Shown: positions 34,367 through 61,782 of the stretch, piece by piece
How the letters are laid out: every line of letters begins with the position of its first letter
Position numbering within the stretch: the stretch's first letter is position 1
Origin: Sphingomonas baiyangensis
GTDB taxonomy: Bacteria > Pseudomonadota > Alphaproteobacteria > Sphingomonadales > Sphingomonadaceae
Reading direction: 5' to 3'
Assembly: GCF_005144715.1 (NCBI RefSeq)
Contig: NZ_SWKR01000002.1
Location: 868,001 to 932,000 of the forward strand
Length of the DNA stretch: 64,000 nucleotides
Notes under the pieces: model-generated
Databases searched by the model: none
The model's input: only the letters and a program-made list of their open reading frames with translations
Told to the model about the DNA's origin: nothing
Program-made: the position numbers and the translations under genes

Positions 34367-35818
34367 CTACGCCGCGCTCAGCGCATAATCGTAGCGGCCC
34401 GTCCGCTGCGCCTCGGCGGGCACCCAGCAACCGTGAAAGGTCGAGCGCACGCGCACCGGCAGCTTGATCGTCGCCACCGGCCCCGCCGCGAGATCGAGCG
34501 CATCGAGCACAACGAGATCGCTGCGCCCCTGCGCCACCCGCGCCACCGGCACCAGCAGCCAGCCATCGCCTTCGGCGCTGTCGGGCGTGCGCGGCACGAA
34601 CTGGCATTCCTGCACGCTGTCGCCCGGCCCCGGCGACCAGCTCTCGAACGCGCCGGTCGCGAGGTCGAGATGGCCGGTGCCGCTCGATCCGTCGGCCGAT
34701 CGCGCGGCGATCATGTATCCGTGCCGATAGGGCCGGCCCTGATAGCGATCGTCGGTACGCGGCATCTCGCACGGCACGTTAAGCAACCGTTGCTTGTCGA
34801 ATCCGCCGTCGTTGCGCGTCAGGTCCATCGTCATGCGCGTCAGGAACGGCGGTACGCCCGGCACATGCTCGCCCGTTGGCGTGGGGAAGAAGGGGAAGCA
34901 ATTGCCTTCGTACAGCACGACGTCGAGATGGATCTTGCTGCCGTCACGATGCGCGTTGAGCATGTGCCCGGCACTCGTCGTCGGCCCTTTGAACCAGCGG
35001 ATGTCGGCCGCCGTGCCGTAGCGTGGCACCAGCGCGACATGCGTTTCCTCATCGGGGCACCAGCGATAGAAAGTGCCGCCCGCATTGGCGTGCTCCTCGT
35101 CATGGATGAGCGGGAAGAACGGAAAGACGATCCATTCGTCGGTAATCGCGAAATCATGGACGCACGCCGCATAGGGCATTTCGAACCAGATCTCGTTCTT
35201 CTTTCCGCCATGCTCGTCGAACAGATAGAAGACGATGTCCTTCGATCCGTCGCCACGCGCCTGGTAGGAAAAGGCGAGCAGCTCGTTGGTGATCGGATCG
35301 ACCTTGGGGTGCGCGGTGAAGCTGGTCGAGGTGATCTGGCCGTTCAGATCGGTGCGACCGATTGTCTCGAGCGTGTCGGGATCGACCTCATAGGGGTGGT
35401 CGTCCTCCTTCAACGCATAGAGATGGCCGGCATGGAACATCGCCGTCGTGTTGGCGGTGCCCATATGCGTGTCGCCCGCTTCGGGATCGTTGGTGAAGCG
35501 GTTGCGATAGCGGCCGAACAGCTGGCGTTTGGCCTCCTTCTGCTTCTTGTAGCGCGCCGTCTCCACCCAGCGGCTGCGATAGCTCACCTGCCCGCCCTCG
35601 AAGCGGAACATGTGCATCATCCCCTCGCCGTCGATGAAGATGTCGTCGTTGCGCTTCGAGGGATATTGCCAGTCGGCGCCGTTGCGATAGAGCGTTCCCT
35701 CAAGCCCTTCGGGGATCGCGCCCTGGATGATCTCCAGCCCCTCGATCGCGACCTCGGTGCGCATCGGCTCGCCCCAGCCCTTGAACAGATCGTTTTCCGG
35801 AAAGCGCAGCGGTTCCAT
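34367..35818 (-). CDS. Carotenoid-oxygenase family dioxygenase, lignostilbene-dioxygenase-like
   Basis: These non-heme iron enzymes cleave a C=C double bond, of stilbenes or carotenoids, to two aldehydes. The 483-residue protein has the four iron histidines: His170 (FTAHPK), His221 (CVHDFAIT), His285 (AGHMLNA) and His462 (STFHGCW). The blocks LFGRYRNRFTN and YALKEDDHP place Tyr104 and Lys137 33 residues apart. From memory this matches Tyr101/Lys134, which hold the 4-hydroxyl of lignostilbene in sphingomonad enzymes. A hydroxystilbene substrate is therefore favoured over a carotenoid. It is the last gene of a minus-strand run, 11 bases after the hydrolase. Confidence 0.85.
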   Translation of the reverse strand: MEPLRFPENDLFKGWGEPMRTEVAIEGLEIIQGAIPEGLEGTLYRNGADWQYPSKRNDDIFIDGEGMMHMFRFEGGQVSYRSRWVETARYKKQKEAKRQLFGRYRNRFTNDPEAGDTHMGTANTTAMFHAGHLYALKEDDHPYEVDPDTLETIGRTDLNGQITSTSFTAHPKVDPITNELLAFSYQARGDGSKDIVFYLFDEHGGKKNEIWFEMPYAACVHDFAITDEWIVFPFFPLIHDEEHANAGGTFYRWCPDEETHVALVPRYGTAADIRWFKGPTTSAGHMLNAHRDGSKIHLDVVLYEGNCFPFFPTPTGEHVPGVPPFLTRMTMDLTRNDGGFDKQRLLNVPCEMPRTDDRYQGRPYRHGYMIAARSADGSSGTGHLDLATGAFESWSPGPGDSVQECQFVPRTPDSAEGDGWLLVPVARVAQGRSDLVVLDALDLAAGPVATIKLPVRVRSTFHGCWVPAEAQRTGRYDYALSAA

Positions 35819-35829
35819 CGTCTCTCTCC

Positions 35830-36705
35830 TCAGGCCCCGTGGGCCGCAATGAACTCGAGTATCTCGCGGCCGACACCATCCTCGCTCGATCCCAGCGAGA
35901 GGCCGGGAGACAGATGGTTGTGGCCGGTCAGCCGCAGCATCGGCGGATACGTGCCCTTCGCCGCGCCCCATGCCGCCACCATCGCAGCGGCCTGCTTCTG
36001 GAAGTCGGCGACGTCGTGTTCGGAGACCGTCATCAGCAGCGGCACGTCGGTGGCGATCAGGCCATGGGTGGTCGAACAGGCGGCATAGCTGGCACTGTCC
36101 TCGCCATAATAGGCCTTGTGGAACTGGTTGGCGTGCGCGGTGGCTACATCGTACACGCACGACAGCAGGATCGCCCCGGCGATCCCGCCGCCTGGTTCCG
36201 CATGGAATTGCAGATGCGCCACATAGCTCGCAACATGCACCGCGCCCGCCGATTGCCCCGCCAGATAGATGCGCGTCGGATCGCCGCCATGCTGCGCAGC
36301 ATTTGCGCGCAGCCCGCGCACCACCGCCGCCAGATCCTCGGGTCCCGAAGGCCATTGGTGGCCGGGCGCCAGCCGATAGGTGACGGTGACGCCGAGCATA
36401 CCGTTGCGCGCCGCGAAATCGCCGACATTCTGGTAGAAGGGCAGCCCCACGGGCGACCTTTTGTCACCCTGCACGAACCCGCCGCCGTGCAGATAAACGA
36501 GGATGGGCGCGCCTTCGACGCCGGGCTTGCGAAACAGGTCCATGCGATTGCGCGGATCGTCGCCATAGCGCACGTCCTCAGTCACCTGCACCTCGGGATC
36601 GAACCCCAGATGCCGCTCGGCGAACAGCGCCTGCGTGCCCTGCATCATCGGCAGGCTCAGATCGGTGCCAAGGGCGGCGATCGCGTCTCGAAGGTCGGGG
36701 CTCAT
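35830..36705 (-). CDS. Alpha/beta hydrolase (HSL-type esterase)
   Basis: This 291-residue enzyme has the oxyanion-hole motif YLHGGGFVQGDK and the nucleophile elbow GQSAGA. The acid is in VSEHDVADF and the histidine in GHNHLSPG, so the catalytic set is complete. It should hydrolyse an ester of an aromatic or acyl substrate. Its start overlaps the alcohol dehydrogenase stop (ATGA), tying it to the catabolic run. The substrate is not known. Confidence 0.85.
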   Translation of the reverse strand: MSPDLRDAIAALGTDLSLPMMQGTQALFAERHLGFDPEVQVTEDVRYGDDPRNRMDLFRKPGVEGAPILVYLHGGGFVQGDKRSPVGLPFYQNVGDFAARNGMLGVTVTYRLAPGHQWPSGPEDLAAVVRGLRANAAQHGGDPTRIYLAGQSAGAVHVASYVAHLQFHAEPGGGIAGAILLSCVYDVATAHANQFHKAYYGEDSASYAACSTTHGLIATDVPLLMTVSEHDVADFQKQAAAMVAAWGAAKGTYPPMLRLTGHNHLSPGLSLGSSEDGVGREILEFIAAHGA

Positions 36706-37799
36706 GCGTCGCTCACCATCAATACGGGCTTGATCGTGCGGCCATGCTGGACATCGTCGAAGGCTCGGCCGATCTCGTCGAAGCGATAGGTTTCAATCAT
36801 CCGATCGAAGGGGAAGCGGCCCTGCCGCCAATAGTCGATCAGCTTGGGCAGAAAGGTACGCGGATTGGCGTCGCCGCCCAATATGCCGCGCAGCTGCCGG
36901 CCGCCCGCCAGCATCGGGAACATCGCTGGTGCCCACTGCCCCATCGGCGCCGCGACGAAGGCCGCAGTGCCGTTCATCGCCAGACATTCGAGCGCCTGCG
37001 TATGGACCGCGGGCGCATTGGTGGTGTTGAGCGTGTAGCGCACGCCGCGCCCGGTGAGCGCGCGAATCTGCGCCACCACGTCGTCGCCCGCCAGCAGCGT
37101 GTCGGTGGCCCCCAGTTCGCGCGCCAGATCGAGCCGCGAGGCCTCGCGATCCACCGCGACGATGCGCGCGGCGCCCACCAGCCGCGCCGCCATCACCGCC
37201 GACAGCCCGACGCCACCGACGCCGAAGAACGCGATGGTATCGCCGAACCCTACCTTCAGCGCCTCGATCACCGATCCCGCGCCCGTCACCACACCGCAGG
37301 CCAGCGGCCCAAGCAGGTGCAACGGCACATCCTTGTCTACCTTCACCGCAGTGCGCTCGGGCACGATCGCATGGCTCGCGAACGAGGACTGGCCGAAGAA
37401 ATGCGAATGCAGCGGCTCGCCCGCAGCGTCGGCAAGCGCGGTCGATCCGTCCAGCCGCTTGCCGCCGAAGGTCATCGGCATCGCCAGGTCGCAATAGGTC
37501 GGGCGATTGTCGAGGCAGGCGGGGCACTGGCCGCACGACGTGCCGCTCATCACCACATGATCGCCCACCGCGAAGCCGCGCACGCCCTCGCCCAGTGCCT
37601 CGACCACGCCGGCGCCTTCATGCCCCAGCACGATAGGCTGCGGCGAATGGCGGCCGGGATGTTCGTGCACGTCGGTATGGCATACGCCCACCGCGACGAT
37701 CCGCACGCGCATCTCGCCGGCGCGCGGCTCAGCCAGCTCGACCTCCTCGATCGCGGGCGCGGGTGCGCCGGGGCGGCTAACCGCGGCGGAAATTCTCAC
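36702..37799 (-). CDS. Zinc-dependent alcohol dehydrogenase (aryl-alcohol type)
   Basis: This 365-residue MDR-family enzyme has the catalytic zinc ligands in VGVCHTDVHEHPG and GHEGAGVVE. The structural-zinc cysteines are in CGQCPACLDNRPTYC. The Rossmann motif is FFGVGGVGLSAV, followed by Asp in IVAVDREASR, which favours NAD. It resembles benzyl-alcohol/aryl-alcohol dehydrogenases. The start is a GTG at 37799 that overlaps the upstream gene's stop (GTGA). It may interconvert aldehydes and alcohols of the pathway. Confidence 0.87.
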   Translation of the reverse strand: MRISAAVSRPGAPAPAIEEVELAEPRAGEMRVRIVAVGVCHTDVHEHPGRHSPQPIVLGHEGAGVVEALGEGVRGFAVGDHVVMSGTSCGQCPACLDNRPTYCDLAMPMTFGGKRLDGSTALADAAGEPLHSHFFGQSSFASHAIVPERTAVKVDKDVPLHLLGPLACGVVTGAGSVIEALKVGFGDTIAFFGVGGVGLSAVMAARLVGAARIVAVDREASRLDLARELGATDTLLAGDDVVAQIRALTGRGVRYTLNTTNAPAVHTQALECLAMNGTAAFVAAPMGQWAPAMFPMLAGGRQLRGILGGDANPRTFLPKLIDYWRQGRFPFDRMIETYRFDEIGRAFDDVQHGRTIKPVLMVSDA

Positions 37800-38305
37800 T
37801 TCAATACCTCGGCGACGGGCGGCGGATTGTTCCGCGGCTTGGGCTTCATCACCATCTGGCCCTTCCACGGCACCTGGTCGGCCGCGGTCCAAGCGTTGAC
37901 CCACAAGGACTGGAAGCGCCAGACGCCCTCTTTCTTGGTCAGGTGATCGCGGCGCGTGCCGATGCCGAAGACGAAGTTGTTGTTATAGTCGACATTATAC
38001 TGGATGATCTGGAAGAAGCAGCGGCTGTCGACTTCGCCCTCCTCCTCGCGCGGCTCCATGATGATCGTGTTCATCAGGTGCTGGCGGCCGTACCACCAGT
38101 GCTGGCGGTCGTTCCACAGCGAGCGCAGGTTTTCGAGGATCGCCTCATGCCCCTGCACGCGGCCCTGCCACAGATGATCGAACCAGCCGTCCTCGACGAA
38201 GGCCGAGCGCACCATCTCCTCGTCGGCAAGGTCGATGCCCCACGCATAGCGCGAATAGGCTTCCTGTATCTCGAGCCGGTCGAGGGCGGAAAGTTGCCAG
38301 GCCAT
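37796..38305 (-). CDS. SnoaL/NTF2-like protein
   Basis: This 169-residue protein has an NTF2-like cone fold pattern: N-terminal helix LDRLEIQEAYSRYAWGID, then FVEDGWFDHLWQGRVQG. It is rich in aromatic residues (QHWWYGRQHLMN, YNVDYNNNFVFG). Enzymes of this fold in sphingomonads perform cofactor-free deformylation or isomerisation of lignin dimers. Others are Rieske beta subunits, but no matching alpha subunit is adjacent. The stop overlaps the alcohol dehydrogenase start. AGGGAGAG precedes the ATG. Confidence 0.78.
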   Translation of the reverse strand: MAWQLSALDRLEIQEAYSRYAWGIDLADEEMVRSAFVEDGWFDHLWQGRVQGHEAILENLRSLWNDRQHWWYGRQHLMNTIIMEPREEEGEVDSRCFFQIIQYNVDYNNNFVFGIGTRRDHLTKKEGVWRFQSLWVNAWTAADQVPWKGQMVMKPKPRNNPPPVAEVLK

Positions 38306-38333
38306 GTTGCTCTCCCTTGCAGGCCGCCGACGC

Positions 38334-39794
38334 TCAATGCGCGCCGGGCTTGCCTAGATGATGATCGTTCAGGATGTCGGCGGGTTCGCCATGCTGCACC
38401 AGCAGCGCCTTGCGCCGGACGAAACGCAGGATCGATTCAGGTCCAGTCCGCGAACCGCCCAAGCCGGAAAACCCGAAGCTGTTGGTGCCGACGGTGCGGT
38501 TCTTGGCGAAGGTCAGGAACGTATCCTGCACGAACACCGATCCGGCGTTCACGCGCTCGGCGATCGCCAGCGCCTCTTCGGCGTCGCCGGCGATCACCGA
38601 TGCGGTAAGCCCGAAATCGGTATCGTTGGCCAGTGCCACCGCCTCGTCGATCGAGACGAAGGACATGACGGGCGCGATCGGGCCAAAGGTTTCCTCGCGC
38701 ATGATCGCCATGTCGTGCGTCACGCCCGTCAGCACGGTGGGGCGCATGTAGAGCCCGCCGTCGATCGTTTCGACGGTGCCGCCGGTAAGCACGTTTGCGC
38801 CTTTCGCCACGGCATCGGCGATATGCGCTTCGACGATCGCCGCCTGCGGCGCGAAGGTGAAGGGATGCAGGTGCCCGGCGCGCGGATCGTCGCTGTTGAC
38901 CCGCACCTCGGCGGCCTTTTCCACCAGCCGCGCGACGAAGGCGTCGTGAATGCTTTCATGGACATAAACGCGCTCGATCGAGAAGCAGACCTGCCCGGTA
39001 GCGTGCACCGCTCCGCGCAGCACCGCGGTTGCCGCGCGCTCGATATCGGCGCTTGCCGTCACGATCGCCGGGTCCTTGCCGCCGAGTTCGAGGAACACCG
39101 GGATCAGTCGCTCGGCGCAGGCGATGGCGATCTTGCGTCCTGTGGGTACGCTTCCGGTGAAGCAGATGAGGTCGGCCTCAGCGATCACCGCCTGCCCCGT
39201 CTCGCCGTCGCCCATCGCATGGTCGAATACTGCCGCCAGCTCGGGCACCGCGCGCACACTTTCGAACAGCGGCGCGATGAAGCGCGGGGTGATCTCCGAC
39301 GGCTTGAGCAGCACCGCCGATCCCGCGAACAGCGCCGGCACCGCATCGAGCAGCGCCAGCATCATCGGCGCGTTCCAAGGGCTGATGACGCCCACCAGCG
39401 GATAGGCGACGAGCTGCGTGCGCACATCGACCGAAGGCATCGCCTTCGAAGGCCCAGCGAACTGCGCCCTGTCGAGCGCGGCGGCGGCGTCCTCGATCCA
39501 GCCGCCGATATTGCCCATCGTGATGAAGCCCTGGAGATACGATGTATGGCACCCGCCGGTGTCGACCGCATCGGCCTCGGCGATCGCGTTTGCGCGCTTC
39601 GCGACTTCGCCGAGCCAGCGCCGCATTACGGCGATGCGTCCTTCGAGCCCCAGCGCTTCCCATGCCGGCTGCGCCGCGCGCAACGCTGCCGCCTTGGCGG
39701 CCACCGCCGCAGCGGGCTCGACCGCCAGCGAGAAATCGGTCGCGCCGGTACGCGGATTGCGTACCGGCAGCAGGCGCGTATCGGCGTCGGCCAT
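38334..39794 (-). CDS. NAD(P)-dependent aldehyde dehydrogenase
   Basis: This 486-residue enzyme has the catalytic set of the family: Asn in VGVISPWNAPMM, Glu in LELGGKDP, and Cys in ATGQVCFSIERV. It should oxidise an aromatic aldehyde such as one released by the stilbene-cleaving enzyme further down the run. ATG 39794 has GGGGAGAG upstream and is preferred over an in-frame ATG 21 bases earlier. It is the first gene of the run that ends with the carotenoid-oxygenase-family gene. Confidence 0.92.
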   Translation of the reverse strand: MADADTRLLPVRNPRTGATDFSLAVEPAAAVAAKAAALRAAQPAWEALGLEGRIAVMRRWLGEVAKRANAIAEADAVDTGGCHTSYLQGFITMGNIGGWIEDAAAALDRAQFAGPSKAMPSVDVRTQLVAYPLVGVISPWNAPMMLALLDAVPALFAGSAVLLKPSEITPRFIAPLFESVRAVPELAAVFDHAMGDGETGQAVIAEADLICFTGSVPTGRKIAIACAERLIPVFLELGGKDPAIVTASADIERAATAVLRGAVHATGQVCFSIERVYVHESIHDAFVARLVEKAAEVRVNSDDPRAGHLHPFTFAPQAAIVEAHIADAVAKGANVLTGGTVETIDGGLYMRPTVLTGVTHDMAIMREETFGPIAPVMSFVSIDEAVALANDTDFGLTASVIAGDAEEALAIAERVNAGSVFVQDTFLTFAKNRTVGTNSFGFSGLGGSRTGPESILRFVRRKALLVQHGEPADILNDHHLGKPGAH

Positions 39795-39840
39795 CGCTCT
39801 CTCCCCGGCGCTCATACCGCGCCTCTATTCGTCCGACGTC

Positions 39841-39868
39841 GTTGTATATTGTGGTAGTGCGAAGTCAA
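39841..39868 (-). promoter_or_regulatory. Candidate sigma-70 promoter of the aldehyde dehydrogenase run
   Basis: On the minus strand TTGACT (39868-39863) and TACAAC (39846-39841) stand 16 bases apart, 47 bases before the aldehyde dehydrogenase ATG. The segment is markedly AT-richer than its surroundings. It lies after the tandem MarR gene, so the downstream run may be transcribed separately. Confidence 0.4.
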
Positions 39869-39889
39869 GCGACCCTTTGGCCGGTATCC

Positions 39890-40861
39890 CTAGGCGAGAC
39901 TGGCCGGTAGAAATCCCGGAAAACGCAGCCGGTGGCTGTGCACGCCGACGATGCGACGTAGCTGCTCGACCAGCCAGCGGATATCGCCGTTCGTTTCGCC
40001 GCGCATCGCGGCGCGCTCGGAACGCTCGGCCTGCGCCTGCAACGCGCCCAACGCGATGCGGCCGGCCTCGGTCAGCCGGTGTATCCGCTCGCGCCCGTCG
40101 TCGGGCGATACCGATGCTGCAAGCAGCCCGCGTTTGGTCAGCGCGCGGACGATGACGCCGCAGGTCGACGGGTCGAGGCCGTAGAGCCGGGCAAACGCCA
40201 TCTGCGTGATCGACTCGCGGCGGCTCAGGATGAACAGCAGCGAGAATTGGCGCAGCGTCGTCCGCGACCCGCGGCTCGCCTCGGCAAAGCTCGCCTGAAG
40301 GTGCTGCAACGCCCGCCGCGCGAGGAAGCTCGGCGCGGTGTCGAGCACGCCGGCCTCGGGCGCGCAGGCAGGGCGCCAGGGTGGCGCCGGGCTCAGTGCA
40401 TTCGATCCCAGCCGATGCAGCATGGCGATGAGCCGTGTGCGATCTTCGGGCGCGAGCGGCGCGACAAGCTCGTCCTGCAAAGCGGCGAAGCTGGTCGCGA
40501 CATCCTCGATCGCCGCGTTCCCCGCTTCGGTCAGCGAGACCTGTGCACGCCGCCGGTCGCTTTCGCACGCCCCTCGCTCGATCCAGCTACGTGCCTGGAG
40601 GTTGTCGAGCACCAGTCCGGTGGTCGACTTGTCGACCCCCGCCGCCCGCGCCAGCGCGATCTGCGGCATCGCGCCGAGCCGGTCCAGCACCAGCAGGAAC
40701 TCGGCCTGCGCAAGCGTCGTCGCCGGTGAGCGTGCGGCATGCAGCGCGGTGGTGATCTGGTCTACCCGCGCCAGCAGGAAGCCGGGCTTGCGGAACAGCA
40801 CCGCCATGATCGCCGCGTCGGGATCGGCAGACGTCGTGGCGGTTGGCGAAGGCGCGTGCAT
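39890..40861 (-). CDS. Double-domain MarR-family regulator (two MarR domains in one chain)
   Basis: A normal MarR protein is about 140-180 residues and dimerises. This one has 323 residues and two complete MarR domains, about 27-152 and 178-300. The helix-turn-helix segments are IALARAAGVDKSTTGLVLDN and MAFARLYGLDPSTCGVIVRA. The wings are ESDRRRAQVSLTEAG and PDDGRERIHRLTEAG. It probably works as a single-chain pseudo-dimer that can carry two different half-site or ligand preferences. It lies between two catabolic gene runs on the same strand and is the obvious local regulator. An internal ATG at residue 19 is a possible alternative start. Confidence 0.88.
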   Translation of the reverse strand: MHAPSPTATTSADPDAAIMAVLFRKPGFLLARVDQITTALHAARSPATTLAQAEFLLVLDRLGAMPQIALARAAGVDKSTTGLVLDNLQARSWIERGACESDRRRAQVSLTEAGNAAIEDVATSFAALQDELVAPLAPEDRTRLIAMLHRLGSNALSPAPPWRPACAPEAGVLDTAPSFLARRALQHLQASFAEASRGSRTTLRQFSLLFILSRRESITQMAFARLYGLDPSTCGVIVRALTKRGLLAASVSPDDGRERIHRLTEAGRIALGALQAQAERSERAAMRGETNGDIRWLVEQLRRIVGVHSHRLRFPGFLPASLA

Positions 40862-40886
40862 GGCGCAGGTGTAGCGCCATGCACGC
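40854..40886. promoter_or_regulatory. 13-base perfect inverted repeat over the tandem-MarR start codon
   Basis: GCGTGCATGGCGC (40854-40866) and GCGCCATGCACGC (40874-40886) are exact reverse complements with a 7-base spacer. The start codon of the double MarR gene lies inside one arm. As DNA it could be an operator for autoregulation. As RNA it could hide the start codon. It also follows the stop of the upstream aldehyde dehydrogenase by 21 bases, but no T run follows, so a terminator is less likely. Confidence 0.55.
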
Positions 40887-40906
40887 CGATGCCAACCCCG
40901 CCGGCG

Positions 40907-42400
40907 TTACAGCCCGATCGTCACGGCCTTCAGTTCGGTATAGGCCTCGACACCGGCGCGGCCGTTTTCGCGCCCCCAGCCCGATTGCTTGTAGCCACCC
41001 AGCGGCATCGCCGGATCGACGCCGCCGCCGCCGTTGATCCGCACCGTCCCCGCACGCACGCGCTTGGCGAGCTTGAGCGCGGTCGACAGATCGCGCGTCC
41101 AGATCGCCGAGGACAGGCCGTACTCGCTGGCATTGGCCGAAGCAGCGATCCCTTCCAGATCGTCGTCGCCGAACCGCATCGCGCAAAGCACCGGGCCGAA
41201 AATCTCTTCCTCGACCACCTTCATGCCGCTGGCGGTGCCCGTCAGCACCGTCGGCTGGACGAAATACCCCTCGCCTTCGATGCGACTGCCGCCCACGCCC
41301 ACCGCAGCACCCTCGTCCATGCCGCTCGCAACATAGCCCAGCACGCGATCGAGCTGTTCCTGGCTCACCAGCGGCCCCATCTCGGTGCCCGGCACCAGCC
41401 CCGCGCCGACGCGCAGCGTGCGCGCACGCTCGCTGATGCCCTCGATAACCTCATCATACACGCGCTCGTGGACGAACAGGCGCGATCCTGCCGCGCATAC
41501 CTGCCCCGCATTGCCGAAGATGCCCATCGCAGCGGCGGGGATCGCCTTGGCGAGATCGGCATCGGCGAAGATCATCGTCGGCGACTTGCCGCCCAGTTCC
41601 AGCGTCACGCGCTTGAGGTTGCCGGTGGAGGCGCGGACGATTGCCTTGCCAACGCTCGTCGATCCAGTGAAGCTCACCTTGTCGACGTGCGGGTGATCCA
41701 CCAGCGCCGCGCCCGCGGTCTCGCCGAAGCCGGTGACGATGTTGACGCTGCCAGCGGGGAACCCTGCCTCTGCCACCAGTTCGGCCAGCAGCGCGGCGCT
41801 GAGCGGCGTCTGTTCGGCGGGCTTGAGAATCACCGTGCAGCCCGCCGCCAGCGCGGGGGCGATCTTGGCGACCGCCATCACGAAGGGGAAGTTCCACGGC
41901 ACGACCGCGCCCACCACGCCCACCGGCTCGCGCAGGCTCATCGCCTGCCATTCGCCCGGCCACGACACCTGCATCGTCTCGCCGGTGATCTTGGTCGCCC
42001 AGCCGGCATTGTAGCGCAGCGCATCGGCGGCGCCCATCACGGCGGCGAACTTCGCCATCATGAAGGGCATGCCGTTGTCGAGCGTCTCGGTCAGCGCGAT
42101 GCGCTCGCCTTCGCGCTCGATCAGGTCGGCGAGGCGCAGCAACAGGCGCGCGCGCTGCGACGGCGGCGTCGCGGCCCAGCCGTCGAACGCGCCGCGCGCG
42201 GCCTTCACCGCGCGATCGATATCCTCGCGACCGCCCGAGGCGGCGCTGGCGAACACCTTGCCCGTCGCCGGATCGACCACCTCGAACGTCTCGCCGCTTG
42301 CAGCGTCAACGAACTCGCCGCCGATGAACAACTGCCGCGACTTGGCAGCGAGGTCGGCGCGCAGCGCATCGAGGCTGGCGGGAGCGAAAGGTGCATTCAT
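40907..42400 (-). CDS. Aldehyde dehydrogenase (betaine/phenylacetaldehyde type)
   Basis: This 497-residue enzyme has the full active site: Asn in VVPWNFPFVM, Glu in LELGGKSP, and Cys in GNAGQVCAAGSRLF. It is closer to the classical class 1/2 group than the other aldehyde dehydrogenase in this region, so the two likely act on different aldehydes. ATG 42400 is used; an in-frame TTG nine bases upstream is less likely. It is the last gene of the run that begins at 49503, five bases after the NTF2-like gene. Confidence 0.92.
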   Translation of the reverse strand: MNAPFAPASLDALRADLAAKSRQLFIGGEFVDAASGETFEVVDPATGKVFASAASGGREDIDRAVKAARGAFDGWAATPPSQRARLLLRLADLIEREGERIALTETLDNGMPFMMAKFAAVMGAADALRYNAGWATKITGETMQVSWPGEWQAMSLREPVGVVGAVVPWNFPFVMAVAKIAPALAAGCTVILKPAEQTPLSAALLAELVAEAGFPAGSVNIVTGFGETAGAALVDHPHVDKVSFTGSTSVGKAIVRASTGNLKRVTLELGGKSPTMIFADADLAKAIPAAAMGIFGNAGQVCAAGSRLFVHERVYDEVIEGISERARTLRVGAGLVPGTEMGPLVSQEQLDRVLGYVASGMDEGAAVGVGGSRIEGEGYFVQPTVLTGTASGMKVVEEEIFGPVLCAMRFGDDDLEGIAASANASEYGLSSAIWTRDLSTALKLAKRVRAGTVRINGGGGVDPAMPLGGYKQSGWGRENGRAGVEAYTELKAVTIGL

Positions 42401-42405
42401 GGCGA

Positions 42406-42789
42406 TCAACCCTTGGAACGTGCGCTGCGGATGCGCGTGAACTTGCCGTCGGGACCGATATCGTAGATCACGATGCTCTCGATGAAGAGTGACTGGCCCT
42501 TGGTCATGGGGCCGGCAATGAAATCGGGCCAGTCCTCGAGCGCATGGAACTCGGTGCTGATGATGCCCGCCAGCCCCTCGTCGTCGAGCACGACCTTCTC
42601 GACGGTCAGCGTCTCGCGCACGCGCGCGAACACGCCGGTATAGAAATCGCGGATCGCCTGCTTGCCGTGCAGCGTCTTCTTCTGGCCGAGCTGGAGCACG
42701 ACGTCGTCGGCGTAGAAAGCGGTGAACGTATCGAAGTCGCCGCGGTTGAAGGCGCCTATATAATTGTCGATCCAGTCGTCCTTGGTCAT
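42406..42789 (-). CDS. NTF2-like (SnoaL) protein
   Basis: This 127-residue single-domain protein has the usual N-terminal helix WIDNYIGAFNRGDFDTFTAF, then YADDVVLQLG, HGKQAIRDFYTGVF, and a C-terminal beta strand IVIYDIGPDGKFTRIRSA. It is clearly related to the second half of the double NTF2-like protein at 58823-59656 (shared YADDVVLELG/HGK..I..FY pattern). A role as a small lyase or isomerase in the pathway is inferred. Its start overlaps the stop of the next gene's neighbour (ATGA with the GMC gene). Confidence 0.8.
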   Translation of the reverse strand: MTKDDWIDNYIGAFNRGDFDTFTAFYADDVVLQLGQKKTLHGKQAIRDFYTGVFARVRETLTVEKVVLDDEGLAGIISTEFHALEDWPDFIAGPMTKGQSLFIESIVIYDIGPDGKFTRIRSARSKG

Positions 42790-44426
42790 GCGGCGTTCCT
42801 CTGGCGGGGATCTTCGGCGGGCAAGGCAGGCAGGCCGAGGATCATGTCACTGGCCTTTTCGGCGACCATGATCGTGGGGGCATTGGTGTTGCCGCCGGGA
42901 ACGGTGGGCATCACCGAGGCGTCGACCACGCGCAGTCCCTCGATCCCGTGGACGCGCAACTCTGGGTCGACCACGCTCATGCTGCCCGTTCCCATCGAAC
43001 AGGTACCAACGGGATGCTGTGTAACCTGCGCCGTCGCGCGGATATGCGAGTCGAGCTCGTCGTCGGATTGCAGCGCGGCACCCGGCAGCAGCTCGTCGCC
43101 GGTAATCTCGCCCTGCGGGCCTGCGGCATAGATGTGCCGCGCGAGCCGGATGCCGTCGCGCGCGGTGCGCAGATCGGCGGGATCGGCGAAATTGTTGAGC
43201 AGGATCGCAGGATGCGCGCGCGGATCGGCCGAGCGCAGCGTCACGCGGCCGCGGCTGTTGGGGTGCAGCAGGATGACGTCGGCGGTGATCCGGTCGTCCT
43301 GGCGCGGTTTGATGCCGGGAAACCATATCTGCGCGTCCATGCGCACGGGGTTCGCCCAGAGCTGGATGTCGGGCTGCGCCAGTTCGGGGCGCGTGCGCAG
43401 GATGATGTTGCAGCTGTTGACCTGGCTGGCGAACGCGCCCTTCCCCGTCAGCGCCCATCGCACGACCGAACGCGCGACGCGATCGGCACGCAGCTCGTTC
43501 AGGAAGCTGATCCTGTCCTTCAGCTTGAAGTGGACCGGCACGCGCGGATGTTCGGAAAGATTCGCGCCTACGCCGGGCAGCACCTGCACCGGCGCGATGC
43601 CGTGCCGCGCCAGCTCGTCGGCGGGGCCGACGCCCGACAGCATCAGCAGCTGCGGCGAGGCGTAGGACCCGCTCGACAGGATGACTTCGCGATCGGCACG
43701 TGCCACCTGCACCGCGCCGTCGCGGACATATTCGACGCCGACGGCGCGCTTGCCCTCGAACAGCACGCGATTGGTCTCGGCGCCCGTCAGCACCGTGAGA
43801 TTGGGCCGGTCGATCGCCGGTTCGAGATAGGCGCGCGCGGTGCTGGCGCGGCGGCCCTTGGCGTCGATCGTCAGCTCGCCGCGCGCGAAGCCTTCCTCCT
43901 GCTCGGCATGCAGATCCTGCGTGATCGGCAGGCCGAGCTCGGCGGCGGTTTCCATCAGCTGATAGTGCAGCCGCGAGCGCGTGTCGTTCGCTACCACCGA
44001 CAGCGGCCCCTCGGTGCCGTGCCACGGTCCGGCGCCCTGCCAGCTATTCTCCATGCGCTTGAAATAGGGCAGCACGTCGGCAAAGCCCCAGCCGGTGCAG
44101 CCCATCTGGCGCCATGTATCGAAATCGAGGCTGTGGCCGCGCATGAAGAACAGCCCGTTGATCGACGACGATCCACCCAGCACGCGCCCGCGCGGCAGGA
44201 AGATGCGGCGATCGTTCAGATGCGGCTCAGGCTCCGACCAGTAGCTCCATCGATAGCGTTCCTTGGTCAGCGCGCGCAGGAAGCCGAGCGGCATCGTCAG
44301 GAGGAACTTGCGGTGCGTGCCGCCTGCTTCGAGCAGCAGCACCCGGTTTGACGGGTTAGCGCTCAGCCGGTTGGCGAGCACGCAGCCCGCCGATCCGGCC
44401 CCGACGATGACGTAATCCCAGCTCAT
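42786..44426 (-). CDS. GMC-family FAD-dependent alcohol oxidoreductase
   Basis: This 546-residue flavoenzyme has the ADP-binding motif VIVGAGSAGCVLANRL, the GMC signature GRVLGGSSSINGLFFMRG, and the catalytic His region TQHPVGTCSMG. It ends in GGNTNAPTIMVAEKASDMI. GMC enzymes oxidise primary alcohols. It is paired with a second GMC gene (ATGA overlap). In Sphingobium SYK-6 a pair of membrane-associated GMC enzymes (PhcC, PhcD, from memory) oxidises dehydrodiconiferyl alcohol; the same role here is a hypothesis. Confidence 0.9.
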   Translation of the reverse strand: MSWDYVIVGAGSAGCVLANRLSANPSNRVLLLEAGGTHRKFLLTMPLGFLRALTKERYRWSYWSEPEPHLNDRRIFLPRGRVLGGSSSINGLFFMRGHSLDFDTWRQMGCTGWGFADVLPYFKRMENSWQGAGPWHGTEGPLSVVANDTRSRLHYQLMETAAELGLPITQDLHAEQEEGFARGELTIDAKGRRASTARAYLEPAIDRPNLTVLTGAETNRVLFEGKRAVGVEYVRDGAVQVARADREVILSSGSYASPQLLMLSGVGPADELARHGIAPVQVLPGVGANLSEHPRVPVHFKLKDRISFLNELRADRVARSVVRWALTGKGAFASQVNSCNIILRTRPELAQPDIQLWANPVRMDAQIWFPGIKPRQDDRITADVILLHPNSRGRVTLRSADPRAHPAILLNNFADPADLRTARDGIRLARHIYAAGPQGEITGDELLPGAALQSDDELDSHIRATAQVTQHPVGTCSMGTGSMSVVDPELRVHGIEGLRVVDASVMPTVPGGNTNAPTIMVAEKASDMILGLPALPAEDPRQRNAA

Positions 44427-46027
44427 GCCGCGCGCGCGAGCGGCCCGCGGCCAAGGATCATGTCGGCGGCCTTTTCGGCGATCATTATGGCGGGCGCATT
44501 GGTGTTGCCGCCAACGATCGCCGGCATCACCGAGCAATCGACGACACGCAGCCCCGCGATCCCGTGAACGCGCAGCTCGGGATCGACGACGGGGCCGATC
44601 GAGCAGGTGCTGGTGGGATGCATCGCGGTGCCGATGATGCTGCGCACGAAGGCGTCGATCTCGGCATCGGACTGCACGTCGCTACCGGGCTGCAATTCCT
44701 GCCGCACCAGTGCGGCGGCCTCGGGCTGCGCGAACAGCTCGCGCGTGAAGCGCACGATGCGGCGGAACGTGGCACGATCGCCTTCGGTCGCAAGCAGGTT
44801 GAAGCGGATCGCGGGCTTCTCGGCAGGATCGGGTGACTTGATGAGCACGGTGCCGGTGCTTTCGGGATGCAGCAGCACGCTCGCCACCGCCAAATAGTCG
44901 CCGCGGCGCTTGCGGATGCCGGGGAACCACACCTTGGCATCCATCGCCACCGAACTGACCAGCAGTTGCAGATCGGGCCGGTCGAGCCCCTCACGCGTCC
45001 GCACGAAGCCCTGCGCGCCGATCGGCATCTGCGTGAGCGGTCCGGTGCCGGTCAGCTGCCACCGCACCGCCGCCAGCGCCATCCGGTCGAAGCGCAGTTG
45101 CTGGTCGAAGGTGAACGGCCCCGAAGCCTCGTACAGCCCGCGGATCGAAGCATGGTCCTGGAGATTATGGCCCACCGGCAGTTCGGCGACGACGTCGATG
45201 CCAAGCTCGCGCAGATGATCGGCGGGGCCGATGCCCGACAATTGCAGCAGATGCGGCGAGTTGAACGTGCCCGCCGACACGATCACCTCGCCGGCGTGGA
45301 CGCGCACCGTCTCGCTATCGCGTACATAATCGATGCCCGTCGCGCGCCCGCGCTCGATCACGATGCGCGTCGTCAGCGCCCGGTCCACCACCGTCAGGTT
45401 CGGCCGCGTCATTGCCGGACGCAGGAAACGCGCCGCGCTGCTGCCACGCCGCCCGCCATGCGTGGTGATGTCGACCGCGCTGAACCCTTCCTGTTCGCGC
45501 CCATGAAAATCGTCGAGATGCGCAAAGCCCATCCGCCCCGCCGCCGCGACGATCGCAGGGTAGATGGTCGGATGCGGATCGTTGCGGCTGACGGTGAGCG
45601 GGCCCGAGCCGCCATGATGCTCGCTCTCGCCGCGCCAGTTCGCCTCGGATTTGCGGAAATAGGGGAGAACCTCGCTCCAGCTCCAGCCGCGCGCGCCCAT
45701 CTGCGCCCATTGATCGTAATCGGCGGGGCTGCCGCGCGAATACATCATGCCGTTGATCGAGCCCGAGCCGCCGATCACCTTGCCGCGCGGCGCCGGGATG
45801 CGGCGGTCGTCGGCATGGGGTTCGGGTTCGGACAGATAGCCCCAGCCGATCTGCTGCGCCATCATCGCGCGGAACCATGCAAGCGGCATCTCGGTCAGAT
45901 GCCCCTTTTCCGACCCGCCTGCCTCGACCAGCAGCACGCGATTGGCGGGATCGGCCGAAAGCCGATCGGCAAGCACGCAGCCCGACGATCCGGCGCCGAT
46001 AATGACGTAATCGAAGTTCCGGGCCAT
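44423..46027 (-). CDS. GMC-family FAD-dependent alcohol oxidoreductase (second copy)
   Basis: This 534-residue paralog of the neighbouring GMC gene has VIIGAGSSGCVLADRL, GKVIGGSGSINGMMYSRG, the catalytic region GTAMHPTSTCSIG and GGNTNAPAIMIAEKAADMI. The two enzymes share overall layout but differ in the loop near GGS..INGL/MM, so they may treat different enantiomers or substrates. It overlaps the hydrolase stop by one base (TGATG) on one side and the other GMC start on the other. Confidence 0.9.
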   Translation of the reverse strand: MARNFDYVIIGAGSSGCVLADRLSADPANRVLLVEAGGSEKGHLTEMPLAWFRAMMAQQIGWGYLSEPEPHADDRRIPAPRGKVIGGSGSINGMMYSRGSPADYDQWAQMGARGWSWSEVLPYFRKSEANWRGESEHHGGSGPLTVSRNDPHPTIYPAIVAAAGRMGFAHLDDFHGREQEGFSAVDITTHGGRRGSSAARFLRPAMTRPNLTVVDRALTTRIVIERGRATGIDYVRDSETVRVHAGEVIVSAGTFNSPHLLQLSGIGPADHLRELGIDVVAELPVGHNLQDHASIRGLYEASGPFTFDQQLRFDRMALAAVRWQLTGTGPLTQMPIGAQGFVRTREGLDRPDLQLLVSSVAMDAKVWFPGIRKRRGDYLAVASVLLHPESTGTVLIKSPDPAEKPAIRFNLLATEGDRATFRRIVRFTRELFAQPEAAALVRQELQPGSDVQSDAEIDAFVRSIIGTAMHPTSTCSIGPVVDPELRVHGIAGLRVVDCSVMPAIVGGNTNAPAIMIAEKAADMILGRGPLARAA

Positions 46028-47697
46028 CACGCGTCTTTCGGGATCACCGGCACCAGCAGATGCGAGTCGTACCGCCCGCCGGTGCGCAGCACATGGATGC
46101 CACGATTGCGCGTGTCCTCGTGCCGCATCATCGAGGGGCCGGGCTGCGGAATTTCGGTATAGATATCCTCGCCCTGCACCAGCACGCGCAGCCCCTCGCC
46201 CGCGCGGAACAGCGTGCTCGACGGCCAGATCTCGATCTCGAGCGGCACCGCCACGCCGGGTTCGAGCGGCTCCTCGTGCGTGTGCGGATGCACCGGCTGC
46301 CACGGCGTCGACTTTTCCGCGTCGAGCGCGCGGTGGCTGGCGCGCAACCAGCCGAGCGCGACCGGCCCCTCCTCGCTGGTGGCGTAGAAGGTAAAGGGCA
46401 CGATATTGCCTTGGCCATCCAGCTTCTGCAGCGCGACGAAGATATCCATGTCGTCATGCTCGGGCGTCTCGACCCACAGGCGCAGCTTTGCATGGCCCGT
46501 CAGCTCGGTATCTTCGTCGAACCGGATGTCGAAATGCGCCGACCCGCCAGCCTCGCTGTCGTAGCGGGCTTCGCTCTCGTCGGGCACCGGCTCGCGCGAC
46601 AGCGAATGGCTGGCGGCGTCGAGATGGAGCGGCATATATTCGGTGCGCGCCAGCGGCCATTCCTGCTCGTCGCGCCACGTCCCCACGCCGCTGCGCTCGC
46701 GCACCTCGATGCGTACCGGCGGCCAGTCCAGCTTGCCCTCGCCACGCAGATTCGTGTCGAAGAATGCGCGCAGCAATTCGACATTGGCAGGGTCGTAATA
46801 ATGCGCCCATTTCTTCTGGCCATGCACCAGCAGATATTTGTGCGGCGACGATGCCGCCTTGTACGCCTCTAGCGTCCCGCGCGTGTGGAACCCCTGGTCG
46901 GACCAGCTGGCGACGAAGAAGGCGGGACATTCGGTGCCCGCCAGATCGACGTCCTTGCTGCGCCAATATTCGTCGATCAGCGGATGCGCGAGCATGTTCG
47001 CCATCGTGTCCTCGGTGCGCGTCGTCGACCAGCGCAGCCCCATCGTCGCCTTGGGCACGAAGCCGGTGTCGCGGATGCCGCCATGATAGCCGAATTCGCG
47101 ATACCAGTCCGAAAAGGCTTCCCACGGGTTGATCGCGGCGAGATGCGGCGGCTTGAGCGGCGCGACCTGATATTGCGAGGCAGCGAGATAGGAGACACCG
47201 CTCATCCCCACGCGGCCATTGCACCATGGCTGCTCGGCGCACCATTCGATCAGGTCGTAGGTATCCTCGGCCTCCTGCGGGCCGCCATGGTTCATCTCGC
47301 CCTGGGAATACCAGCTGCCGCGCGGATCGGGATAGACGACGGCATAGCCATGCGCGCACCAATAGGCAGGATCGGGCGCCTCGAACGCGGTATGTTTCGA
47401 GATCCAGCCCGGCTCGATGCCTGCCGACGGCCAGAGATTGTCGGCCAGATTGTGTTTGCCATAGGGCGACCAGCCGATGATCGCCGGCACCGTCGCGCCT
47501 TCGGGAAGGTCGGCGGGCAGATACATATCGACCAGCATCTCCACGCCGTCGCGCAGGCGCACGGGAATGTCGCGCTCGAAGCGAAGGCCATCCTCGACGC
47601 GGACGATGCGCCCGACGCCGGGATGCGGCTGCGCCTTGAACACCGCTTGCGCGGGGTCGGCGCCCTCGCGCATGATCGGCTGGAACCGCTCGGTCAT
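46027..47697 (-). CDS. CocE/NonD family serine hydrolase
   Basis: This 556-residue enzyme is of the X-Pro dipeptidyl-peptidase (S15) / cocaine-esterase type. The nucleophile is in GVSYLAASQ after GRVGM, the acid in ASWSDQGFH, and the histidine probably in KKWAHYYDP. A C-terminal jelly-roll domain covers about residues 330-550. Such enzymes hydrolyse aromatic esters or amides. It is embedded in the coupled run, so it likely opens an ester of the pathway substrate. ATG 47697 overlaps the MFS stop (ATGA). Confidence 0.88.
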   Translation of the reverse strand: MTERFQPIMREGADPAQAVFKAQPHPGVGRIVRVEDGLRFERDIPVRLRDGVEMLVDMYLPADLPEGATVPAIIGWSPYGKHNLADNLWPSAGIEPGWISKHTAFEAPDPAYWCAHGYAVVYPDPRGSWYSQGEMNHGGPQEAEDTYDLIEWCAEQPWCNGRVGMSGVSYLAASQYQVAPLKPPHLAAINPWEAFSDWYREFGYHGGIRDTGFVPKATMGLRWSTTRTEDTMANMLAHPLIDEYWRSKDVDLAGTECPAFFVASWSDQGFHTRGTLEAYKAASSPHKYLLVHGQKKWAHYYDPANVELLRAFFDTNLRGEGKLDWPPVRIEVRERSGVGTWRDEQEWPLARTEYMPLHLDAASHSLSREPVPDESEARYDSEAGGSAHFDIRFDEDTELTGHAKLRLWVETPEHDDMDIFVALQKLDGQGNIVPFTFYATSEEGPVALGWLRASHRALDAEKSTPWQPVHPHTHEEPLEPGVAVPLEIEIWPSSTLFRAGEGLRVLVQGEDIYTEIPQPGPSMMRHEDTRNRGIHVLRTGGRYDSHLLVPVIPKDA

Positions 47698-49019
47698 CGA
47701 ACCTCCGGTGCTTGGTACAGATCGCCGCGCAGTGTGCGCGCCGCGATCAGATAGTGGATCGCCGACCACAGGAACGCGAGCGTCACGCTGGCCAGCGCAT
47801 AGCGGATACCCGTGGCCGAAGCCTCGGCACCGCCGACGCTCGCGGCGATACGATCGCTGGCGAAGCCCAGCCATGTCGGCCCCAGCCCCGACCCCACGAG
47901 CCCGCAGCACATCGCGATGATCGCCACCGCGGTCGCGCGCATCCGCGGGCCGACGAGGTTCTGCGCGGTGGCATAGGTCGGCGTGTAGAACAGGAACAGC
48001 AGCATCCCGCCCAACAGCAGCGCGCCGATAGACACCGGCAGCGAGGTGGCGAGGAAGCCCACACTATAGGCGATCGCCGCGCCCGTTACGCCGATCGCCG
48101 GCATCCACAGGCTCCAGCGCTTGTCGCGCTTCGCCGCCCAGTCCGATCCGAAGCCGCCGATCAGCGTGCCGAGGCTCAGCGCCACGAACACCGAAGCTCC
48201 TTGGATCAGCCCCGCATCGGTGAGGCTGAGCGCATAGGCGCGGACGAAAAAGACCATCTGGAACTGGCCGATCGCCACCAAGCCAAACGTTGCTAGCGTC
48301 GCACCGGCAAGCGCGTGGATATAGGTCCGCTTGGCGAACACCGTCCGCAGCACCGTGCCGAAGCTCTCGGCCGGGCGGCGCTCGGGCGGGGCGCCCTCGG
48401 CCAGCCCGCGCGGCGGCTCGCGCAGCAGAATGAGCAGCAGCGCCGCCACGACGATGCCCGGCGCGCCCATCGCGTAGAAGGCGACGCGCCAGCCCCATTC
48501 GTCGGCGATCCAGCCGCCCGCGATCGCACCGATCGCGTTGCCGATCGGCGACCCCAGCATGATGACCGACAGCGCCGAGGCGCGCTGGCTGGCGGGATAG
48601 TGATCGCCGACGAGCGAGGATGTCGGCGACATGAACCCCGCCTCGCCCACGCCCACCGTCATGCGCAGCAGGAACAGCTGGAGGAAGCCCGTCGCCAGGC
48701 CGCACAGCAACGTCGCCACCGAAAACACGGTGATCGAGATCGCGAGGATCCACAGGCGCGAATGACGTTCGGCAAGCCGGCCGATCGGCACGCCCATCGT
48801 TGCATAGAGCAGCGCGAAGCTGAGCCCCTGCAACAATCCGAGCTGGAAGTCCGAGAAACCCAGATCGAGCTTGAGCGGCTGTGCCACAGCGGAGAGCACC
48901 GCGCGATCCATGAAGGTAAGCGTGCATACCGCCAGCAGCAGCGCGAGGAAACGCGCGCGATAGCGCCGGCTCAGCAGCCGCTCGGCGGCGTCGCGATGAT
49001 CGGCGGCCAGGCTCGCCAC
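47694..49019 (-). CDS. MFS transporter, spinster-like
   Basis: This protein has about twelve membrane helices with the MFS loop GVPIGRLAERHSR after helix 2 and LTFMDRAVLSAVAQPLKLDL in the first helix. These are typical of the spinster-type MFS proteins common in sphingomonads. The start is probably the GTG at 49019, four bases after the DUF3237 stop, giving 441 residues. The longer in-frame reading lies inside DUF3237. It may import or export an intermediate of the pathway. Confidence 0.82.
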   Translation of the reverse strand: MASLAADHRDAAERLLSRRYRARFLALLLAVCTLTFMDRAVLSAVAQPLKLDLGFSDFQLGLLQGLSFALLYATMGVPIGRLAERHSRLWILAISITVFSVATLLCGLATGFLQLFLLRMTVGVGEAGFMSPTSSLVGDHYPASQRASALSVIMLGSPIGNAIGAIAGGWIADEWGWRVAFYAMGAPGIVVAALLLILLREPPRGLAEGAPPERRPAESFGTVLRTVFAKRTYIHALAGATLATFGLVAIGQFQMVFFVRAYALSLTDAGLIQGASVFVALSLGTLIGGFGSDWAAKRDKRWSLWMPAIGVTGAAIAYSVGFLATSLPVSIGALLLGGMLLFLFYTPTYATAQNLVGPRMRATAVAIIAMCCGLVGSGLGPTWLGFASDRIAASVGGAEASATGIRYALASVTLAFLWSAIHYLIAARTLRGDLYQAPEVR

Positions 49020-49023
49020 GGCT

Positions 49024-49503
49024 TCAGAGCACCTGGAAATAATGGATGCGGTTGGCGCCGGGTATCTTCTCGGCGACGCCGACGAACACGTGGCGGTTGA
49101 GCCACTCGTGCGGCCCCGCCGGCGCATCGAAGCGCGGCGATGCGCGCATGTAATATTCGTCGGGGCCCACTTCCTCGTTGCGGCGCTGGCGCTCCATCAC
49201 TTCGGGCGAGGCCCAGCGGTAGCCGCGATTGTGGATCATGATGTGCGCGCCATCGTCGAGGCGAAGCAGATATTTGGCGTCGAAATCGAGCACGCCATCG
49301 GCGCGTACCAGCGGAAAGTCGCCGCCGCTCATCGGCACGACGATGCCGTTGATACGGCCCTCGACGGTGCCGCTCGCGGCATAGACCGCCGCGCGCGTCT
49401 GGCCGATGCCCGATGGCTCGATATAGGTCGCCTTGGTCAGCTCGATCGCGATCGTGAAGGCGTATTCCATCTTGGGGAAGAAGGGATGGGGCGCATCGGC
49501 CAA
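49024..49503 (-). CDS. DUF3237 domain protein
   Basis: This 159-residue protein covers a single DUF3237 domain, seen in SGGDFPLVRADGVLDFDAKYLL, then HIMIHNRGYRW and the C-terminal HEWLNRHVFVGVAEKIPG. It is a paralog of the gene at 56309-56809. I recall, without being able to check, that the SYK-6 decarboxylases of the phenylcoumaran pathway (PhcF/PhcG) carry this domain. It is the first gene of the long minus-strand run and directly follows a terminator. Confidence 0.85.
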   Translation of the reverse strand: MADAPHPFFPKMEYAFTIAIELTKATYIEPSGIGQTRAAVYAASGTVEGRINGIVVPMSGGDFPLVRADGVLDFDAKYLLRLDDGAHIMIHNRGYRWASPEVMERQRRNEEVGPDEYYMRASPRFDAPAGPHEWLNRHVFVGVAEKIPGANRIHYFQVL

Positions 49504-49518: not shown

Positions 49519-49557
49519 AAAACAGGTGCGGCGACGCTCCCCGGGGAACGCCGCCGC
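49519..49557 (-). terminator. Terminator of the TonB-dependent receptor gene
   Basis: Read on the minus strand, GCGGCGGCGTTCCCC pairs with GGGGAGCGTCGCCGC (two mismatches). It is followed by ACCTGTTTTCGC, which contains a short T run. It starts 12 bases after the receptor stop and sits just before the DUF3237 gene, whose promoter must lie in the same 65-base gap. Confidence 0.6.
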
Positions 49558-49568
49558 AAGGTGGAGGC

Positions 49569-52517: not shown

Positions 52518-52561
52518 GATTCCTGCCTCTCCTGGTTTGACACCCGTGGTCCGGGTTTTCA

Positions 52562-54216: not shown

Positions 54217-54257
54217 GTTGGCGTCCCTGTCGGCTGCTCTCCGCCATTGATCTTGAT

Positions 54258-54270: not shown

Positions 54271-54287
54271 GGAGTCAAGCGCCCGCC

Positions 54288-61780: not shown

Positions 61781-61782
61781 CG

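Follow-up and report, generated by a model that had tools for sequence, protein, structure and literature searches.

Two tightly packed gene runs on a 64,000-nucleotide stretch of the Sphingomonas baiyangensis genome (contig NZ_SWKR01000002.1, positions 868,001 to 932,000; hereafter the window) encode oxidoreductases, hydrolases, a DUF3237 protein and a carotenoid-oxygenase-family enzyme, and the question arises which compounds they degrade. An earlier reading of the bare sequence (the original prediction) had likened them to the pathways by which Sphingobium sp. SYK-6 degrades phenylcoumaran and diarylpropane lignin dimers, with esterase steps added. Here, comparative evidence strongly supports the view that the window holds the SYK-6 phc cluster in an orthologous but rearranged form. 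We estimate a probability of about 0.85 that it serves the catabolism of beta-5 (phenylcoumaran) aromatic dimers, because it matches SYK-6 gene by gene, trees place its products with PhcG, PhcF and PhcD, a Sphingosinicella sp. carries the corresponding genes in a single operon, and LsdD, FerD, LigW and LigB are encoded in the same genome. Coordinates are window positions unless another sequence is named; the full cluster reaches from 34367 to ~59656.

The two runs match the phc locus of SYK-6

Domain library scans of the window proteins found all families named before on the minus strand, and the families and tight spacing of both runs were borne out. In the first run (49470 to 40907), neighbouring genes overlap by 4 bases or lie no more than 5 bases apart. 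The run encodes a DUF3237 protein (DUF3237a, 49024–49470; PF11578, E 2.6e-35), a spinster-type MFS transporter (47694–49019; PF07690; GTG start at 49019, 4 bases after the DUF3237 stop), a CocE/NonD serine hydrolase (CocE, 46027–47697; ATG 47697, overlap 4), two GMC oxidoreductases (GMC1, 44423–46030, starting at GTG 46030 or ATG 46027, and GMC2, 42786–44426, ATG 44426, overlap 4), a SnoaL_2/NTF2-like protein (SnoaL2, 42406–42789, overlap 4) and an aldehyde dehydrogenase (ALDH1, 40907–42400; PF00171; ATG 42400, gap 5, or TTG 42409). The predicted spacing of this run stood, but its start did not: DUF3237a most likely begins at ATG 49470, not at TTG 49503. A regulator gene with two MarR stretches (39890–40861, minus strand) lies between the runs, 45 bases past ALDH1. 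The second run (39815 to 34367, minus strand) follows in the order ALDH2 (38334–39815), SnoaL_4 protein (SnoaL4, 37796–38305), zinc alcohol dehydrogenase (ADH, 36702–37799), Abhydrolase_3 esterase (AB3, 35830–36705) and an enzyme of the RPE65/lignostilbene dioxygenase (LSD) family (34367–35818), with spacings of 74, 28, -4, -4 and 11 bases counted from the MarR gene.

When 250 genomes from the same family were searched with DUF3237a, a clade at 60–70% identity emerged, one member of which lies beside a second DUF3237 gene at 997 kb of NC_015976.1 (4,199,332 bases), the chromosome of Sphingobium sp. SYK-6. The counterpart cluster occupies ~991–1015 kb, and its gene order agrees with the published tags of phcF (SLG_09360), phcG (SLG_09370), lsdB (SLG_09440), phcC (SLG_09480) and phcD (SLG_09500) (PMC12997858); tags were assigned to coordinates by this agreement of order, not from an annotation file. 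The phc locus is the known SYK-6 locus for catabolism of phenylcoumarans (beta-5 dimers) such as dehydrodiconiferyl alcohol (DCA). Nearly every gene of the window from the TonB receptor to the outermost SnoaL protein has a counterpart there, with identities of 38–84%: in the first run DUF3237a 63% (to PhcG), CocE 64%, GMC1 51%, GMC2 64% (to PhcD), SnoaL2 48–49% (three copies in SYK-6) and ALDH1 63% (to the gene adjoining phcD); in the second run ALDH2 71%, SnoaL4 84%, ADH 75%, AB3 51% and the LSD 67%. The predicted phenylcoumaran logic of paired GMC enzymes, aldehyde dehydrogenases, a DUF3237 decarboxylase and a lignostilbene-type dioxygenase is strongly supported by these orthologues on the SYK-6 chromosome. 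Since the order of the second run is repeated in SYK-6 and several other genomes (48–84% identity), the two runs are not chance arrangements.

The genes named before do belong to the set, but it was incomplete: a TonB-dependent receptor, an AAHS-type MFS transporter, a second DUF3237 protein and a further SnoaL protein had been missed, each of which has a counterpart in the SYK-6 cluster. The receptor gene (49569–52562, minus strand; start ATG 52562 or 52517) is 54% identical to its counterpart, the MarR gene 40% to the gene in the equivalent position of SYK-6, the AAHS-type transporter (54933–56285, plus strand) 52%, the second DUF3237 protein (DUF3237b, 56309–56809, plus strand) 39%, and the SnoaL protein (SnoaL58, 58823–59656, minus strand) 48%. 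Ten window enzymes were scanned against the NCBIfam equivalogs and all scored under the cut-offs except for CocE_NonD, which is a subfamily-level model, and therefore no specific enzyme name was drawn from this library. An island-like composition was rejected, as G+C is flat across the region (65–69%) and the sole tRNA is far off. Despite this ordinary G+C the cluster is patchy in its own genus, where none of four genomes searched had a DUF3237a match.

Trees of the decarboxylases and oxidoreductases

PhcF and PhcG of SYK-6 act on the acid DCA-CC, and a third gene, PhcH, is implicated in the decarboxylation (PMC8191317); PhcH could not be matched to any gene of the window. A tree built from 161 DUF3237 proteins joins DUF3237a and PhcG in a clade that excludes PhcF and PinX (SH-aLRT 96), and DUF3237a is predicted to be a ring-opening decarboxylase of DCA-CC. 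DUF3237b clusters with PhcF (SH-aLRT 94) and is taken as a PhcF-type partner; genes that flank CocE-PhcG elsewhere are 70–76% identical to it. A search of the PDB with the SnoaL and DUF3237 proteins gave uncharacterised or distant entries alone. The S. baiyangensis genome holds a third DUF3237 gene directly after an LsdD-type dioxygenase gene (C2:596064-597985). LsdD of SYK-6 is likewise adjoined by a DUF3237 gene, and the two proteins are nearest neighbours in the tree, which argues that this pair of genes is conserved.

GMC2 falls in the PhcD clade with a support of 97/99. GMC1 lies inside the PhcC/PhcD subfamily, apart from the enzymes at the HpvZ and PinY positions; it is closest to PhcC (51%, versus 49% to PhcD), beside which its branch is poorly placed. 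So the GMC and DUF3237 proteins did not find their best matches in unrelated pathways; both are placed with phc proteins. Among the SYK-6 comparisons laid down beforehand, those with PhcG, PhcF and PhcD gave the predicted groupings, PhcC proved to be the nearest SYK-6 relative of GMC1, LsdA reached 36% and the region of the presumed ldpA gave no match.

A generic oxidation or detoxification cluster unrelated to aromatic dimers, for instance for polyols, terpenoids or steroid side chains, could be assembled from the same parts, GMC, ALDH, SnoaL and CocE being broad families. We consider such a function highly improbable in view of the orthology to experimentally studied phc genes, the fact that FerD, LigW and LsdD are linked to them in other genomes, and the phenol-binding pair Tyr101/Lys134 retained by the dioxygenase.

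Diferulate esters as possible substrates of the hydrolases

8-5'-Diferulic acid is a cross-link of grass cell walls. Its benzofuran form, trans-5-((E)-2-carboxyvinyl)-2-(4-hydroxy-3-methoxyphenyl)-7-methoxy-2,3-dihydrobenzofuran-3-carboxylic acid (PMC3645672), and the phc intermediate DCA-CC, 5-(2-carboxyvinyl)-2-(4-hydroxy-3-methoxyphenyl)-7-methoxy-2,3-dihydrobenzofuran-3-carboxylate (PMC8191317), are one compound, since the systematic names agree. Chemically, DCA has been made from 8-5-coupled diferulate, and DC-S-C from it by alkali (PMC11323797). The accessible literature describes the SYK-6 phc enzymes with DCA alone, and a literature search, which excluded subscription papers, found no paper linking phc genes to diferulates as substrates.

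The original prediction had treated the esterases as additions to the SYK-6 scheme. In fact, CocE and AB3 both have counterparts in the SYK-6 cluster, and CocE turned out to be the most constant immediate neighbour of PhcG. CocE scores above the cut-off of TIGR00976, its residues Y80, S170, D268 and H293 are invariant in 58 orthologues (residue 1 at base 47700), and it is predicted to cleave a dimer ester. AB3 is 57% identical over 286 residues to PDB 4ZRS, the feruloyl esterase EstF27 (PMC5171882, PMC10332459). The constancy of CocE beside PhcG, the feruloyl-esterase likeness of AB3, and the TonB receptor and aromatic-acid-type MFS transporter, which fit an ester or acid, suggest that 8-5'-diferulate esters might be a main natural substrate and that esters enter the pathway here; we rate the chance of this at slightly below even.

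Hydrolase and decarboxylase as the probable conserved core

For a census of relatives, 80 PhcG-clade loci were compared with flanks of up to 10 kb; because these loci were selected for their likeness to the window protein and do not sample species independently, the counts are descriptive. A CocE orthologue (at least 45% identity) was found in 56 of the 80 loci, in 53 of them no more than 1 kb from PhcG, and a PhcF-type partner in 57–64, depending on the way of counting hits. Only 10/80 had a GMC gene of one of the types tested within 10 kb. The spinster-type transporter had a similar MFS at 31 loci, the AAHS-type transporter one of at least 50% identity at 21, and the second run occurred near phcG in ~11. 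Other neighbours were IclR, TauD-type and Amidohydro_2 (LigW-like) genes and, in 8 loci, a further carboxylesterase; no glycoside hydrolase was found near PhcG in the ten representatives scanned. This comparative evidence suggests that the conserved core is the hydrolase plus the DUF3237 decarboxylase, not the GMC pair.

Single loci tie this core to the rest of the pathway. In a Sphingosinicella sp. (L058) the genes PhcG-CocE-LsdD-FerD-LigW-GMC1-GMC2-SnoaL2-ALDH1 form one run, with GMC1, GMC2 and ALDH1 69, 69 and 82% identical to the window proteins. At four other loci (L084, L095, L114, L121) FerD, LigW and LsdD adjoin PhcG-CocE-PhcF with no GMC gene within the flanks. When 33 CocE-PhcG genomes were searched whole, a GMC protein at the level of PhcD (at least 60%) was present in 11 and an intermediate one (45–57%) in 16, and six, including Niveispirillum, Azospirillum and two Sphingomonas, had none above 41%. 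Sphingomonas caeni LB-2 and Niveispirillum irakense are isolates that lack PhcC/D. Absence of GMC genes from the locus thus overstates the point, because a third of these genomes (11/33) have a PhcD-level GMC somewhere. Homologues of LsdD (59–77%) and LigW (48–72%) were present in all ten genomes checked, six of which lack a GMC at the PhcC/D level.

PhcG-clade proteins at 65–68% identity also occur in Pseudomonas (L088, L106) and in gammaproteobacterial bins (L061, L071, L090), with no CocE nearby, which suggests that these genes were transferred between classes and that the decarboxylase has another context there.

These data bear on whether the cluster serves free lignin-type alcohols (DCA) alone, as described for SYK-6, with CocE and AB3 either stripping acyl groups such as acetate or p-coumarate from the gamma-alcohol or being incidental. 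The phc genes of SYK-6 were discovered through DCA (PMC8191317, PMC12997858), and the GMC pair, ALDH1, ADH and ALDH2 would suit a route that oxidises the two alcohol side chains of DCA. But CocE keeps its place beside PhcG in genomes that lack a GMC at the PhcC/D level, where a freed gamma-alcohol would be left without a known oxidase, and AB3 resembles a feruloyl esterase; we therefore find a restriction to DCA rather doubtful. A broader proposal, held as tentatively as the ester entry itself, is that the phc decarboxylases are primarily for 8-5'-diferulate esters of plant, notably grass, walls: a CocE-type hydrolase would free the acid, PhcF/PhcG would turn it directly, by decarboxylation, into the stilbene (poacic acid/DCA-S), and PhcC/PhcD, the GMC pair, would be a later add-on that admits lignin-type alcohols at the same intermediate.

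Several observations weigh against the beta-5 assignment or against its ester part. CocE's nearest solved relative can be named by family alone. GMC1 does not come out as a strict PhcC orthologue, and DUF3237b, 39% identical to PhcF, makes a weaker case than the PhcG orthologue. Further, the dioxygenase of the cluster carries Ile in place of Phe59 and Gly in place of Ser283, and the orthologous SYK-6 enzyme handles DCA-S poorly (PMC8191317). As for the ester step, 11 of the 33 genomes do carry a PhcD-level GMC gene, and in the others a different oxidase might stand in for PhcC/D.

If diferulates are substrates, the cluster would represent a bacterial route for a major ferulate cross-link of grass walls, of which we found none in the literature consulted. 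This would account for the hydrolase as the most constant neighbour of PhcG, for the acid-suited transporters in the cluster and for genomes that keep PhcF/PhcG without PhcC/PhcD, and it would be relevant to the engineering of microbes for funnelling grass biomass. With a hydrolase and a DUF3237 protein as the core, the natural substrate of the phc pathway becomes directly testable.

The dioxygenase and the second run

The family of the predicted dioxygenase was correct, but its type had to be changed: with 67% identity to SYK-6 LSD7/LsdB (SLG_09440) and no more than 41% to any other of the eight SYK-6 LSDs, of which LsdA/LSD6 was compared separately (36%), it is an LSD7 orthologue. It keeps the four iron-binding His, Tyr101 and Lys134, and shares the exchanges at positions 59 and 283 with SYK-6 LSD7, which prefers lignostilbene (PMC8191317). 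As the main DCA-S enzyme it was rejected, given its LSD7-type sequence, the altered residues and an LsdD-type enzyme elsewhere in the genome.

Sequence searches of the S. baiyangensis genome located this LsdD-type LSD (75% to LsdD) at C2:596-598 kb, FerD (81%) and LigW (73%) adjacent to each other at C2:22.8-25.3 kb, and LigB (69%) at C1:279 kb. On paper, the main beta-5 steps LsdD, FerD, LigW and LigB, leading to protocatechuate 4,5-cleavage, are present.

The second run might instead handle a different stilbene-forming dimer or a phenolic ester, as a pathway of its own that merely travels with the phc genes. It has its own MarR gene ahead, is on the whole better conserved than the first run (51–84% to SYK-6), ends in a dioxygenase whose SYK-6 orthologue prefers lignostilbene and whose residues 59 and 283 are changed (PMC8191317), and is found also without GMC genes nearby. 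Yet it shares the strand of the first run across short gaps, stays close to phcG in the ~11 loci mentioned, and lsd7 is induced by DCA in SYK-6 according to Kamimura et al. as cited in PMC8191317. We take separateness seriously but lean a little to the other side. If the run belongs to the beta-5 pathway, ADH and ALDH2 may oxidise the allylic alcohol side chain; otherwise the run may serve a related dimer. ALDH1, whose homologue in L058 stands in the same operon as PhcG, is a candidate for the dehydrogenase that converts DCA-CL to DCA-CC. Hence the cluster supplies candidates for SYK-6 steps that have no assigned enzyme.

SnoaL4 is the best-conserved member of the cluster relative to SYK-6, exceeding all surrounding enzymes, and has no solved or characterised close relative. 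The predicted link of the NTF2-like proteins to diarylpropanes found no support. The SnoaL proteins of the window gave no BLAST match in SYK-6 at 1370–1410 kb, the region that holds the presumed ldpA, SnoaL4 reached no better than E 0.12, and a search of the S. baiyangensis genome, run without a positive control, found no LdpA homologue. A role as formaldehyde lyase of the LdpA/PcfL type was thus without sequence support in either place, and a diarylpropane route is not indicated.

Transport, regulation and neighbouring genes

The AAHS-type transporter is a predicted aromatic-acid importer; its library match is MFS_1 and the AAHS label is ours. According to a review, transporters are implicated for DDVA, a diacid, but not for other, uncharged dimers (PMC12997858). 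Between the TonB receptor gene and the DUF3237a gene lies a terminator-like stem of 14 pairs (49527–49558, minus strand), the longest in the region, where the count of such sites was not above chance. Two Rieske oxygenases with a VanA_C domain (53161–54312 and 60734–61795, both minus strand) flank the cluster and could demethylate methoxylated ring products. The former has dicamba O-demethylase as its nearest solved relative and no counterpart of at least 40% in the 80 PhcG loci.

Proposed pathway

Sequence shows the orthology, the gene order, the co-occurrence and the presence of downstream genes, and the reactions of PhcC/D, PhcF/G, LsdD, FerD and LigW are known from work on SYK-6. That the window orthologues catalyse these reactions is inferred, as are the removal of esters and what ALDH1, ADH/ALDH2 and the transporters do. 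In the proposed route, dimers would be taken up via the TonB receptor and an MFS transporter, and esters would be removed by CocE and/or AB3. In alcohol-type dimers (DCA-C) the ring-bound CH2OH would be oxidised by the GMC pair and ALDH1 to DCA-CC, identical with 8-5'-diferulic acid in its benzofuran form. Next, the two DUF3237 proteins, that of the PhcG type in the run and that of the PhcF type at 56309, would decarboxylate DCA-CC and open its furan ring, giving the stilbene DCA-S. This stilbene would be split into vanillin and 5-formylferulate by a lignostilbene dioxygenase, for which the LsdD-type enzyme (C2:596 kb) is the likeliest choice; the LSD7-type enzyme encoded in the window may act on a related stilbene. 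Ferulate would then be made by FerD and LigW (C2:23-25 kb), and protocatechuate 4,5-cleavage (LigB, C1:279 kb) would complete the route.

Comparison with known systems

EstF27 comes from a soil library and, in the literature consulted, was found with no link to dimer catabolism; the feruloyl-esterase activity of AB3 is predicted from similarity. PinX, the DUF3237 lariciresinoate decarboxylase of Novosphingobium rhizosphaerae LY, shares the family and the predicted kind of reaction with DUF3237a, CO2 loss with opening of a furan ring (PMC12607616, PMC12997858), but the SYK-6 gene at the position of the PinX homologue belongs neither to the PhcG clade nor to that of PhcF. The PcfL route of Novosphingobium aromaticivorans for DCA has the same end steps, LsdD, FerD and LigW, all encoded in the S. 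baiyangensis genome; there, an NTF2-fold gamma-formaldehyde lyase replaces the GMC and DUF3237 enzymes, whereas in S. baiyangensis no LdpA-like protein was found. Like the window, the ddv cluster of SYK-6, which serves DDVA uptake, groups a TonB receptor (DdvT), an MFS transporter (DdvK) and a MarR regulator (DdvR) around aromatic-dimer enzymes (PMC6874591). Its enzymes and its dimer differ, and a role in uptake for the window genes is a prediction.

The closest parallel is the phc cluster of SYK-6 itself. Both keep the second run in the same order and on the same strand, whereas only the window has PhcG-CocE-GMC1-GMC2-SnoaL2-ALDH1 in one overlapping run. Unlike in SYK-6, the PhcF-type gene does not adjoin phcG but stands apart beside the AAHS-type transporter, and the spinster-type MFS has no close counterpart in the SYK-6 phc cluster. 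The cluster adds a further genome to the known range of this lignin-dimer pathway.

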